This document shows, piece after piece, positions 5,779 to 29,392 of a stretch of DNA of 32,142 nucleotides. The translations under genes and the position numbers were made by a program. Source of the stretch: Nitrospirota bacterium (GTDB lineage: Bacteria; Nitrospirota; Thermodesulfovibrionia; Thermodesulfovibrionales; Dissulfurispiraceae); NCBI GenBank assembly GCA_021847795.1, contig JAJZPZ010000021.1, positions 1-32,142 on the forward strand. The letters run 5' to 3'. The notes below the pieces were generated by a model. The model was given only the letters and a program-made list of their open reading frames with translations, was not told the origin of the DNA and did no database searches. The stretch's first letter is position 1. Each line of letters starts with the position of its first letter.

Positions 5779-6543
5779 CTACTTGCCTGCCATTTCAATC
5801 AGGGTCTTCGCATCCACATACCCGCTGACAAGCCTGCCGTCAGGGAAGATTATGGCTGGTGTGCCTGATATCCCGAGCCCCCTGCCGAGCTTGATGTTTT
5901 CGTCTAAAACAGATGTCTCGCATTTCGGTTTTGGGAGAGGCTTGCCGCTGAATGCGTCCTCAAGGAGTGCGAGGGACTTTTCGCACACGATGGCTTTTGC
6001 TTTCTCGTAGGCGTCTTTATGCATGGGCAACGGGAACATCTTTATATAAAAAGCAATGTCTTTTCTCTCCTGAATCACCTTCTTCATCTCCTGATGAAGT
6101 TTCCCGCAGTAGGGTCAATCCGGATCGTCGAATACGATAATCTTATGTTCGGCATCTTTATTCCCCATGACAAGCGCGTCTTTCAGCGGGATTTTTGATA
6201 CATTGACCCGGGTGATGTCAAGGAGCCTTTCCTGGGTGAGGTTCTTTCTTCCCTTGATATCAACAAGCGCCCCGGAGAAAAGGTAGCGCTTTGAAAAATC
6301 GACGTACACAAGACTCTTCTGCCCGTTTGATTCGAAATCGACTTCCCATAATGATTTTACCGGCATGGTCTTAACATCCAGCACCTTAAGGTTGGGAATA
6401 ATGCTGCCCAGGAGAGTTGATGCCTCATCCTTTGTAAGGGTATGGCATTTCGAGCAGTCCTGGTCCTGAGTGGGAAAGGCATGGGCATATGCTCCAGAGT
6501 AGAGCAGGAAGACAGCAACAAGAACTAAGAGCCGTGTGCGCAT
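5779..6543 (-). CDS. DsbC-like thiol:disulfide isomerase, predicted selenoprotein (UGA at 6115-6117)
   Basis: A secreted thioredoxin-fold protein of 254 residues if UGA is decoded as selenocysteine. A signal peptide (residues 1-22) is followed by a CSKCH motif (Cys30, Cys33, His34) that could bind haem c. A DsbC-type N-terminal domain comes next. The active site reads VFDDPD-Sec143-PYC146, where DsbC proteins have CPYC. After the UGA the frame continues with family-typical sequence (KLHQEMKK, MFPLPMHKDAYEKAKA) and the cis-Pro motif GISGTPAIIFPDGR. A hairpin 15 bases after the UGA fits a bacterial SECIS. The start ATG follows GGAGG by seven or eight bases. Without UGA decoding the gene would be split into an N-terminal fragment ending at 6115 and an orphan C-terminal part. 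Confidence 0.8.
6082..6099 (-). promoter_or_regulatory. SECIS-like hairpin after the in-frame UGA
   Basis: In the mRNA (minus strand) a perfect 6-bp stem, CUUCAU with AUGAAG, encloses the loop CAGGAG. It starts 15 bases after the UGA codon. Bacterial SECIS elements sit a short distance downstream of the UGA and carry a G-rich apical loop; the GG in this loop fits. It lies in coding sequence, as bacterial SECIS elements do. The spacing and fold were judged by eye, not by a folding program. Confidence 0.6.
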
Positions 6544-6567
6544 CCATCAACCTCCGTTATTTTATAG

Positions 6568-11518: not shown

Positions 11519-12682
11519 TTATTTCTTCTGCGTATGACAGGTAAAACAGCCGCCGCTTCCGCCGCCGCCGGCTACCATGGCTGTGTAATCCCATCTGAGC
11601 ATTGAGGGATAGTTAGAGGCATGAGAGGCATGGCATGAGAGGCACATGACAATATCCGACCCCGGAGAAACAATACTGCTTATTGCATCAGGAACTGTTA
11701 TCCTTGCAACAGGCGCTTCTATACTGTAAGCCGTGTATCCGGCATATTCGCCGGTGGAGGGCAATACTATATCAGTCGGGTGTCTCTGGAATGGTGAATG
11801 ATTGGTGCTGCCGATACCTGCATCGTTGCCGTAATACCCGCCGCTCAGGGTATGAAAATTCCCGTGGCAGGTGCCGCAGAACCCGCTTATTGTATTATTG
11901 ACACTACGCAATCCGTTCGCGCTATGGCAGGAGTTAATACAACCGCCGCTGTAGTTATAAATTGGAGGTGTGGTTGTACCGAAATACTCATTATGACTAC
12001 TGGCATCCTTGTTCTGCCATTTATATGTTCCGTTATTCTCAAACCCCTTCACGCCTGTCAGAAATCTATAACTGTTGTAAACCTGATCAGCAACATCGAG
12101 CTTGCTGATATCAGGATTTTTGTGATGGGTGCCTTTCATGGCATACAAATTAGTTATACCGCTCATTTCCATCCTCTTCCCGTGACAGCCCTCTTCTACG
12201 CAACAGCTCAAATTAGTAATAATTATTGATCTGTGCCCGCTGCCTTTAAACCCGCCGGGTATTACCGTATTATTAAAAAGCGGGTCAGGCCCATTATTGA
12301 GTTCATATACATTATGCCCCTTGCGGTCCGATGCGCCGCTGCCTTTTGTTCCAGTAATATAAGCAAAATTCCCTCCCGCCAGGTCCCCCGAAGCATCCGC
12401 ATGGTAAACCTGGGGGACATCGGAACCGCCGATGTTCACTATCTTGGAGGTGCCTATGCCGTGGCATCCCAGGCAATTGCCGCGGACCAATGTCGGGTTG
12501 ACCCCTGAACCTTTCCAGGGCTTACTATCAGCTCCATAGGTAGCCATAGCTGCGTTATTCTGGCTATTGTGCATAGTATGACAGTTAACGCACGGGCCGG
12601 TTATTTTGGCATCAGAAAAGTTATAAAACAAAACTAAAAACATGAAAATTATAAATAACGGCATGAAGAATTTTATTAACAT
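11519..12682 (-). CDS. Multihaem c-type cytochrome, secreted
   Basis: A 387-residue exported protein with a signal peptide (residues 1 to about 25) and seven haem-type motifs. Five are canonical CxxCH: CVNCH, CLGCH, CGTCH, CLSCH and CFTCH. Two have wider spacing: CINSCH (CX3CH) and CVEEGCH (CX4CH). Several extra His residues (for example GTHHKN) could be distal ligands. A Gly-rich linker precedes the last motif. It probably carries electrons in the periplasm or at the cell surface in anaerobic respiration. The start at 12682 is chosen because AGGAGG lies eight bases upstream and the signal peptide then begins directly. No other cytochrome gene is adjacent. Confidence 0.88.
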
Positions 12683-12720
12683 ACAAGCCGCCTCCTGCTC
12701 CAACCTTTTATGTTGTACTA

Positions 12721-12738
12721 TGCAATTGCAATATTGCA
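12721..12738. promoter_or_regulatory. Overlapping palindromes upstream of the cytochrome gene
   Basis: TGCAATTGCA (12721-12730) and TGCAATATTGCA (12727-12738) are both perfect palindromes sharing four bases. They lie about 40-55 bases upstream of the cytochrome start codon, where a regulator might bind. A further 13-base palindrome, TTACAA-A-TTGTAA, is at 12775-12787. Confidence 0.4.
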
Positions 12739-12870
12739 AATACCATGCCTATATTTTTTTGATGCGCACGCATGTTACAAATTGTAATTATTAGGTGTTG
12801 TCTTGATACGAAAATCCAATAAAGTCATAGCATTAGCTATTTGCTCTATTTTTTGCAAATTCTCTGCAAC

Positions 12871-13615: not shown

Positions 13616-13635
13616 AACCGATAAACAGGATGCAG

Positions 13636-13667
13636 TCCTCAAGGCAAAATGCCTTGAGGATTTTTTT
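13636..13667 (+). terminator. Intrinsic terminator in the leader of the bzaC-like gene
   Basis: TCCTCAAGGC and GCCTTGAGGA (13636-13645 and 13651-13660) form a 10-bp perfect stem with a five-base loop, followed by seven T. It closely matches the terminator of the cobalamin riboswitch at 18376-18407 (both read TGCA[AG]TCCTCA before the stem and GGATTTTTTT after it). It may end transcription of the small genes upstream or act as an attenuator. The only SD-like bases for the bzaC-like start (GAGGA) lie in its 3' arm. Confidence 0.85.
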
Positions 13668-13671
13668 ATAT

Positions 13672-15231
13672 ATGCCGGATAGAAAATTCCCATTTTTTTC
13701 GCATGACCCTCAGGATGCCGGTCCCCAGTATCTGGAAGACCTGGCTACGGCATACTGGTTTTCCGAAACGCTCTTCACGGCAGTTGAGGCCGGTATCTTT
13801 ACATTCCTCGGGCCCGAAGGGAAAACTGCCGGCGAAATTGCGCCTGCACTGGGCCTTGAACCGCAAGGTCTTGCACGGCTGCTGCATGCCCTTTGTATGC
13901 TGGGCCTCCTGCACCATGATGGTGGACACTTCTCCAACACGCAACTCTCAGGCGAGTACCTTGTTGCAGGGAAGAAGTATTACCAGGGCGAGTCAATTCT
14001 CTGGAGGAAAAGTCTTGCCGGCCGCTGGACAGGCCTGAAGCAATGCCTGAAGGCCGGAGGCAGGACCGATTACAGCCCTGAGATGGAGGACCCTGCAAAT
14101 CTGTCCGGCCGCATACGCAGATATATCGCTGCGATGAATTGCACTGCACAGGTAAAAGCCCGGGAGATTCTGCCCATATTCGGCAGCGCCCTGGAACAGG
14201 GAGAGCTCCTCGATGCAGGGGCGGGATCAGGCGCGCTGGCAGCAGGGTTCCTCGAGCATTTTCCCAAGCTGAGGGCCACGCTCATGGATATCCCGGGAGT
14301 GCTGGACCATACCAGGGAGTTTATCAGCAGTCAAAATTTGAATGAACGGGTCTCCTGTTGTGCGGCAAACATTCTGGAACCCTGGCCTTTCAGCCAGGGA
14401 AAGTTTGATCTGGTTATACTCTCAAACATCATCCATGCCTATTCCGAAACAGAGCTTCCCCACATTCTTGCCAATGCCGCTGAATGCCTGAAGCCGAAGG
14501 GGCTTATCATAATCCATGATTTTTTCCTGGAGCACTGCCCTGAGAAAGCGGCCCTCTTTGACCTGAACATGCTGATCAACACCTATAACGGAAGAGTATT
14601 CTCCCAGGACCTGATCATGGAAGGGCTTTCAAAGCTGGGGCTTTGCACTACCGGCCCTGTCCCCCTCGGAACAGATACAGGCCTTATCATCGCAGCGAAA
14701 AACGAAGAGGAATTATCCCGTCTCCAGCTTGATAAAGGCGCTGTTCTGGTTTCCAGGGTCCGTGCACTCGGATTTCGCCGGGTCAAACCTGTTCCGGTGG
14801 ATATGATCCATGTACCGGGCTGGCCTGACATGCGTTGCCGGTTCGGATGCAGCAGGTACGGGAGCCCGCACTGTCCGCCTCACAGCCCCTCTCCAAAAAA
14901 GACAAAGGAAATCATGGAAGATTACACATCTGCAATCCTGCTGGAAGGGGAACCGCCGACAAAGGAATTTCAGCTCCGCGTCTTAAAAGCTGAAAAAGAG
15001 GCCTTCACCTTAGGATTCTATAAGGCCTTTGCATTCTGGGCAGGCCCATGCTCCCTTTGTCCTGAATGCCCCCGGACCGGCAAATGCCGCAACACCAAAG
15101 ACAGCAGGCCGTCTATGGAGGGCGCAGGGATCGACGTATTCGAGACAGTCAGGCGGGCAGGCTTTGCGCTCCGGACACTCGACAGGAAAACCGACTTCGT
15201 CAAATATTTTGCTTTGATACTGCTGGAATAA
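13672..15231 (+). CDS. SAM methyltransferase fused to DUF2284 Cys-rich domain (BzaC-like)
   Basis: A 519-residue fusion. The first 100 residues are a winged-helix dimerisation domain (LFTAVEAGIFTFL, EIAPALGLEPQGLARLLHALCMLGLL). A class I O-methyltransferase domain follows, with the SAM-binding motif LLDAGAGSGALA near residue 179 and FDLVILSNIIHAYSETE. From about 375 a Cys-rich DUF2284 domain shows CRFGCSRYG, CPPHSP and CSLCPECP...GKC, suggesting a metal or Fe-S site. BzaC O-methylates 5-hydroxybenzimidazole in the anaerobic DMB pathway; this role is inferred from the order (methyltransferase, then two radical SAM genes, then a ThiC-like gene with cobamide genes). ATG 13672 is preferred over 13630, which lies inside the terminator. 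Confidence 0.75.
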   Translation: MPDRKFPFFSHDPQDAGPQYLEDLATAYWFSETLFTAVEAGIFTFLGPEGKTAGEIAPALGLEPQGLARLLHALCMLGLLHHDGGHFSNTQLSGEYLVAGKKYYQGESILWRKSLAGRWTGLKQCLKAGGRTDYSPEMEDPANLSGRIRRYIAAMNCTAQVKAREILPIFGSALEQGELLDAGAGSGALAAGFLEHFPKLRATLMDIPGVLDHTREFISSQNLNERVSCCAANILEPWPFSQGKFDLVILSNIIHAYSETELPHILANAAECLKPKGLIIIHDFFLEHCPEKAALFDLNMLINTYNGRVFSQDLIMEGLSKLGLCTTGPVPLGTDTGLIIAAKNEEELSRLQLDKGAVLVSRVRALGFRRVKPVPVDMIHVPGWPDMRCRFGCSRYGSPHCPPHSPSPKKTKEIMEDYTSAILLEGEPPTKEFQLRVLKAEKEAFTLGFYKAFAFWAGPCSLCPECPRTGKCRNTKDSRPSMEGAGIDVFETVRRAGFALRTLDRKTDFVKYFALILLE

Positions 15232-18086: not shown

Positions 18087-18115
18087 TTGACAAATGCAGT
18101 AACGGGCTATATAGT
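18087..18115 (+). promoter_or_regulatory. Sigma-70 promoter of the riboswitch-controlled operon
   Basis: TTGACA (18087-18092), exactly 17 bases, then TATAGT (18110-18115). Transcription should start near 18122, right at the beginning of the cobalamin riboswitch. Confidence 0.8.
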
Positions 18116-18122
18116 AAATTAT

Positions 18123-18290
18123 TCAGGTGCACGAAGCTTAATAGGGAATCCCGTGAGGGCTCACAAGCAGCCCAAACCGGGAGCGGTCCCGCCGCTGTAA
18201 CCGGGGACGAAAGCCGCCATGCCACTGTCCAAAACGGATGGGAAGGCCGGCAAGTAGGACGATCCGGGAGCCAGAAGACCTGCCTGTAGA
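18123..18290 (+). ncRNA. Cobalamin riboswitch 1
   Basis: The classical aptamer landmarks are in order: AATAGGGAATCCCGTGAGG, then GCCGCTGTAACCGGGGACGAA, GCCACTG, GGATGGGAAGGC and the B12 box GAGCCAGAAGACC. The ends CAGGT and ACCTG pair to close the structure. It is followed after about 85 bases by an intrinsic terminator just before the BzaF-like gene, so bound cobamide should stop transcription of the cobamide operon. Confidence 0.95.
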
Positions 18291-18375
18291 GACCCCGCAA
18301 CGTGTTACACGTTACGGGCAACGAGATTAACCTTCTCGCGGATGGAAGGTGAGGATGAAGTGAACCAGGGTGCAA

Positions 18376-29178: not shown

Positions 29179-29216
29179 GATAACAAAGCCGGAAAATTCG
29201 TGAAGCGCAAAAAATC

Positions 29217-29369
29217 CGGGGAATGAAGAAGCGGAAAGGGGTGAAAACCCCCTGCTGTCTCGCAGCCGTGAAGGGAACGAAAGCCCCAAGTTAATAGCCA
29301 CTGTTCGCATTAGGCGGATGGGAAGGCTGGTGAGTAGGGAGCCCTGAGCCGGAAGACCTCTCATTCCCA
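29217..29369 (+). ncRNA. Cobalamin riboswitch 2
   Basis: GGGAATGA (29218-29225) and TCATTCCC (29361-29368) form a perfect outer stem. Inside are the aptamer landmarks CGCAGCCGTGAAGGGAACGAA, AGCCACTG, GGATGGGAAGGCTGG and the B12 box GAGCCGGAAGACCT. It lies 38 bases after the cbiX-cbiC stop and just before the barrel gene. No T-run terminator follows, so control is probably at translation; the segment CCTCTCAT (29357-29364) can pair at seven of eight positions with the ribosome binding region at 29378-29385. Confidence 0.93.
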
Positions 29370-29392
29370 AAACCTCGATGAAAGGAGAAAAG

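Follow-up and report, generated by a model that had tools for sequence, protein, structure and literature searches.

The minus strand of the window, by which we mean the whole 32,142-nucleotide stretch of Nitrospirota DNA that was analysed, appears to encode a DsbC-like selenoprotein between positions 5779 and 6543, a reading to which a probability of roughly 0.93 can be given. The gene extends from an ATG at 6541-6543 to a TAG at 5779-5781 and specifies 254 residues, with selenocysteine (Sec) at residue 143. Upstream of the ATG, a ribosome-binding site, GGAGG, can be read from the sequence (6551-6555, minus strand). A single in-frame UGA at 6115-6117 interrupts an otherwise intact family protein and is followed by exactly 111 sense codons up to the TAG. 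A preliminary description of this DNA had reported the frame VFDDPD-UGA-PYCGK with 111 further codons, and this frame is present on the minus strand, the UGA being residue 143. The span proposed there, 6082-6543, has the correct start, but the gene ends at 5779 rather than at 6082. The conclusion drawn there, that the product is a probable DsbC-like selenoprotein, is now supported by homologues, the hairpin downstream of the UGA, the Sec genes of the same genome, and domain matches. Residues 1-22 (MRTRLLVLVAVFLLYSGAYAHA; 6478-6543, minus strand) form a probable signal peptide, recognised by inspection from its hydrophobic core and A-x-A end and lacking a lipobox. Segments resembling it are present in relatives, and the N-terminus is of low confidence in the structure model.

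Homologues were searched for in 150 related genomes, 138 of which gave a match, many with exactly one internal TGA and others with none. A scan of named genomes added 48 loci, nearly all from Nitrospirota MAGs, the exceptions being one labelled Syntrophaceae and a few from Desulfuromonadia or other deltaproteobacteria. The homologues can be aligned with the window protein along its full length. At column 143, only Sec or Cys is found, with UGA in 73 and TGC or TGT in 62 of the 135 distinct homologues; the latter supply the Cys homologues alignable at this residue that had been suggested as a comparison. The active site, U-P-Y-C at residues 143-146 (6106-6117, minus strand), is aligned with CGYC of DsbC. 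The preliminary description was thus right about the position of the UGA within the DsbC motif, but wrong in giving that motif as CPYC, since the best-matching solved DsbC proteins have CGYC. One UGA homologue (L182; G035:C1:2085747-2090394) carries U-P-F-S, in which Ser stands in place of the resolving Cys and the SECIS hairpin is intact.

The distribution of the codon also bears on two simpler explanations. If the UGA were a true stop, the region would hold either two distinct genes or a pseudogene disrupted at residue 143, and a table 11 list of open reading frames does split the frame into 6115-6543 and 5779-6087. This explanation is highly improbable in view of the 73 distinct homologues that share the UGA codon, keep the downstream half intact, and have a frozen hairpin; a pseudogene is rejected because a dead gene would not keep these three features. 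A sequencing or assembly error that changed TGC to TGA might be imagined, the window being a single contig from a draft assembly of 273. Its probability is smaller still, considering that TGA occurs at the same codon in independent assemblies of many genera, for example, in the same-genus relative G001 and in the Nitrospirota records L050-L055, and that the hairpin is SECIS-like in TGA genes only. The relatives with TGA at this codon rule out a misread TGC, which had been named as a possible refutation. For practical purposes, the conserved UGA and hairpin exclude a true stop, a pseudogene, and a sequencing error. Gene callers split or truncate such UGA genes, just as the plain list of open reading frames divides the window gene, so that many genomes may carry a wrong annotation for this periplasmic enzyme, which is widespread in Nitrospirota.

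A bSECIS hairpin, CTTCATC-AGGA-GATGAAG (6082-6099, minus strand), consists of a 7-bp stem and a 4-nt loop and begins 15 nt downstream of the UGA. The preliminary description had given its position and GG-containing loop correctly, whereas its stem was said to be 6 bp. Published rules for bSECIS elements ask for an apical loop of 3-9 nt, a stem of 4-16 bp, a G in the first two loop positions, a loop located 16-37 nt after the UGA, and an MFE of -7.5 or lower (PMC13188914). The window hairpin satisfies every one of these rules, with the loop AGGA starting 22 nt after the UGA and a folding energy of -11.7 kcal/mol for the segment downstream of the UGA. The bSECIS prediction thus returns a rule-conforming element that is conserved in UGA genes only. 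Taken alone, the window hairpin is not significant because about 5% of random synonymous recodings of the same peptide also form all 7 pairs, whereas the comparison with homologues is overwhelming. Of the 73 UGA genes, 72 form all 7 base pairs (70 of the 71 that passed a motif filter, and 2 outside the filter), against an average of 3.9 pairs in the 58 Cys genes scored. The sequence CTTCATC-nGGn-GATGAAG is almost fixed in UGA genes, where the codon run CTT CAT CAG GAG ATG AAG is nearly invariant (Leu CTT in 71/71, His CAT in 68/71, and Lys AAG in 71/71), and mixed synonymous codons are used at the same Leu, His, and Lys sites in the Cys homologues. Folding z-scores are -1.93 for UGA genes versus -0.27 for Cys genes, with a p-value of about 2e-14 from sequences that are related and draws that are not independent. 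Because of this dependence, the confinement of codon freezing to the hairpin is a stronger argument than the p-value. A small covariation signal is added by two UGA genes in which T-A is changed to C-G on both sides of one pair.

The selA, selB, selC, and selD genes, whose presence had been proposed as a check, are all found in the window genome, which has one tRNA-Sec with the anticodon TCA and matches to SelB, SelA, and SelD at 351, 619, and 359 bits, respectively. A second tRNA-Sec candidate (C88) turned out to be a tRNA-Tyr. The SelD gene (L018; G000:C270:28628-29554) has one in-frame TGA, and its product is probably a selenoprotein itself, as is known for SelD from other bacteria. The same genome holds a second Sec candidate (L101, 1156-2046; G000:C158), which has a DsbA-like domain with the motif FSDYQ-UGA-PYC, a GC-rich hairpin after the UGA, and an N-terminal part resembling a beta-propeller fragment. 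In the homologue listing, G004, which lacks the Sec machinery, and G103, in which it is broken, are represented by Cys versions only. The latter contains selA and selB as fragments only, one of them with a TAA (C97, C105; L046), together with a retained tRNA-Sec and a DsbC-like gene in the Cys form, and its lineage seems to be in the process of losing Sec use. For two genomes with UGA genes (G061 and G097), SelA and full-length SelB were not found; since a strong tRNA-Sec match is present in both, these may be gaps in draft assemblies.

In a tree of 133 sequences, built with the Sec codon and SECIS columns left out, the Sec/Cys label changes 22 times by parsimony, and at least 5 of the changes are forced by well-supported branches, which indicates that Sec and Cys have been swapped repeatedly. 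Repeated exchange of this kind is the expected pattern for selenoproteins. The window genome also encodes a Cys paralogue that is 50% identical to the window protein. With both forms side by side in one genome and many switches on the tree, the family offers a natural experiment well suited to asking why Cys is replaced by Sec.

The domain composition and fold of the protein are those of DsbC-type enzymes. Two Pfam domains are detected, DsbC_N (PF10411; 6.3e-10, above the cut-off) and Thioredoxin_2 (PF13098; 2.3e-21, 76.5 bits against a cut-off of 27). The NCBIfam DsbC equivalog NF008129 scores 79.1 bits, far below its cut-off of 215, and the protein is therefore called DsbC-like rather than DsbC. 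In the profile ranking, Thioredoxin_2 and DsbC score highest and DsbG is second, and the closest solved proteins are DsbC, at 25-27% identity. A structure model computed from 46 aligned relatives has a mean pLDDT of 89.9. Its best Foldseek match is DsbC (E 3e-15), the fold alignment to DsbC covers residues 35-254 with Z of about 18 over about 200 residues, and DsbC and DsbG are its best matches among full-length chains. Cys187 (5983-5985) and Cys208 (5920-5922), which delimit the span 5920-5985 on the minus strand, do not vary among the 46 aligned sequences and correspond to the second Cys pair in the alignment with solved DsbC; they probably form a structural disulfide as in DsbC. Pro229 (5857-5859, minus strand), at the cis-proline position of thioredoxin folds, lies in a GTPA loop that is aligned with the GTPA of DsbC and is invariant.

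These features can be combined into a mechanism for synthesis and action. SelB, bound to the hairpin that immediately follows the UGA at 6115-6117, would deliver Sec-tRNA to this codon, and residue 143 would become selenocysteine, the machinery, codon, and hairpin being observed and the insertion itself inferred. The signal peptide would export the protein, and DsbC_N, judging from the fold, would probably mediate homodimerisation. Because of the signal peptide and the UPYC motif, a Sec-Cys pair working in the periplasm is likely. There, Sec143 would attack substrate disulfides and Cys146 would resolve the mixed selenide-sulfide. The reduced form could be restored by a CcdA-type membrane carrier, for which the window genome has two short candidate genes. 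The main activity is quite probably that of a disulfide isomerase or reductase. A comparison of gene neighbourhoods at about 130 loci revealed no conserved neighbour that suggested itself as an operon partner; the sigma-54 regulators that are frequent near the loci are probably paralogues of a large family.

The preliminary description, whose selenoprotein reading stands, mentioned neither the earlier descriptions of such selenoproteins nor a second motif, CSKCH at residues 30-34 (6442-6456, minus strand), which could be a site of haem c attachment or another redox pair. It is located about 8 residues past the likely signal-peptide cleavage site, in the exported protein, and abuts the dimerisation domain on its N-terminal side, the next residue being the one aligned with residue 1 of solved DsbC. 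C-x-x-C-H is found in 114 of the 135 distinct homologues and is common to Sec and Cys forms, including those of Desulfuromonadia. In about 56 sequences, a further Cys lies four residues ahead of the motif, giving GC-x-x-DCxKCH (window 6442-6456, L020-L184). The presence or absence of the motif changes 8 times on the tree, with its loss from an entire Sec-containing branch. Its correlation with the Sec/Cys state was tested on the tree, where there were too few informative pairs. In a tandem DsbC-like pair (L117 and L079), a Sec copy without CXXCH lies beside a Cys copy with it.

The motif may serve for covalent haem attachment, as a second redox pair, or for metal binding. Haem is favoured over a plain redox pair because the His is kept as strictly as both cysteines; that CXXCH actually carries haem is, on the whole, rather doubtful. 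No cytochrome domain was found in the window protein, and a distal haem ligand tracking CXXCH was sought among the homologues without success, His150 and His175 being conserved equally in homologues lacking the motif. The window genome encodes several cytochrome c assembly proteins, and the window itself contains, at 11519-12739, a multihaem cytochrome with paired CXXCH motifs, which suggests that the organism makes c-type cytochromes. A selenol-haem enzyme can be envisaged as a speculative arrangement, in which a DsbC-like dimer with haem c covalently bound to the N-terminal CXXCH, next to the dimerisation domain, would link disulfide exchange at the Sec-Cys site to cytochrome electron transfer, but we regard it as unlikely. 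If CXXCH does carry haem, protein disulfide chemistry would be connected with the cytochrome network in anaerobes. No relevant paper on a DsbC-like protein that itself bears CXXCH or haem was found in a search of the open-access literature, which is weak evidence of novelty.

The same observations raise the possibility that the main work of the selenoprotein is not general disulfide isomerisation but the reduction of a specific partner, in cytochrome c maturation or elsewhere, with the involvement of CXXCH. The presence of the motif in most homologues, the cytochrome c assembly proteins and multihaem cytochrome, and a score well below the DsbC equivalog cut-off are consistent with such a role. 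Against it, the protein has the dimerisation domain and the general fold of DsbC/DsbG, and no cytochrome maturation gene occurs among the conserved neighbours. We give this alternative a low likelihood and prefer a disulfide isomerase or reductase of the DsbC type.

Elsewhere in the window, two cobalamin riboswitches (18108-18301 and 29207-29379) precede cobalamin-synthesis and transport-like genes, and an O-methyltransferase fused to a DUF2284 predicted metal-binding domain (13630-15231) is followed by two B12-binding radical SAM genes.

Several known systems resemble the window protein in part. Thioredoxins of the CcmG/CcsX type for cytochrome c maturation are periplasmic and reduced by CcdA-type carriers, and CXXCH is the substrate motif of their pathway. 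They lack DsbC_N, whereas the window protein has CXXCH within its own chain. Enteric DsbC (1eej, 4i5q) shares with the window protein the combination of DsbC_N and a thioredoxin domain, the second Cys pair, the GTPA loop, and the best fold match, but is only 25-27% identical, has CGYC instead of UPYC, and does not have the extra N-terminal CXXCH. Among selenoproteins, DsbG-like and DsbA-like families are likewise included in reviews of prokaryotic selenoproteins, and the DsbG-like one (UxxC; PMC1088965, PMC1794560) also places Sec first in a DsbC/DsbG-type thioredoxin active site. In the review entries, it is assigned to Thioredoxin_4 or NF041057, whereas the window protein scores highest with Thioredoxin_2 and DsbC. 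A match in domain and motif is provided by the selenoprotein 'Thiol:disulfide interchange protein' (PF13098, UxxC), a family that goes back to the list of Zhang et al. from 2006 (PMC1794560) and is retained in later reviews (PMC9312934 and PMC13188914; example WP_011366075.1), with members in Geobacter and Syntrophus according to these sources. It has in common with the window protein the Thioredoxin_2 domain, the U-x-x-C motif, and UGA-coded Sec with Cys homologues. The passages describing this family, compared here by domain and motif, do not mention DsbC_N, members from Nitrospirota, or CXXCH. On this basis of domain and motif, the window selenoprotein belongs to an already described kind, which is widespread in Nitrospirota.
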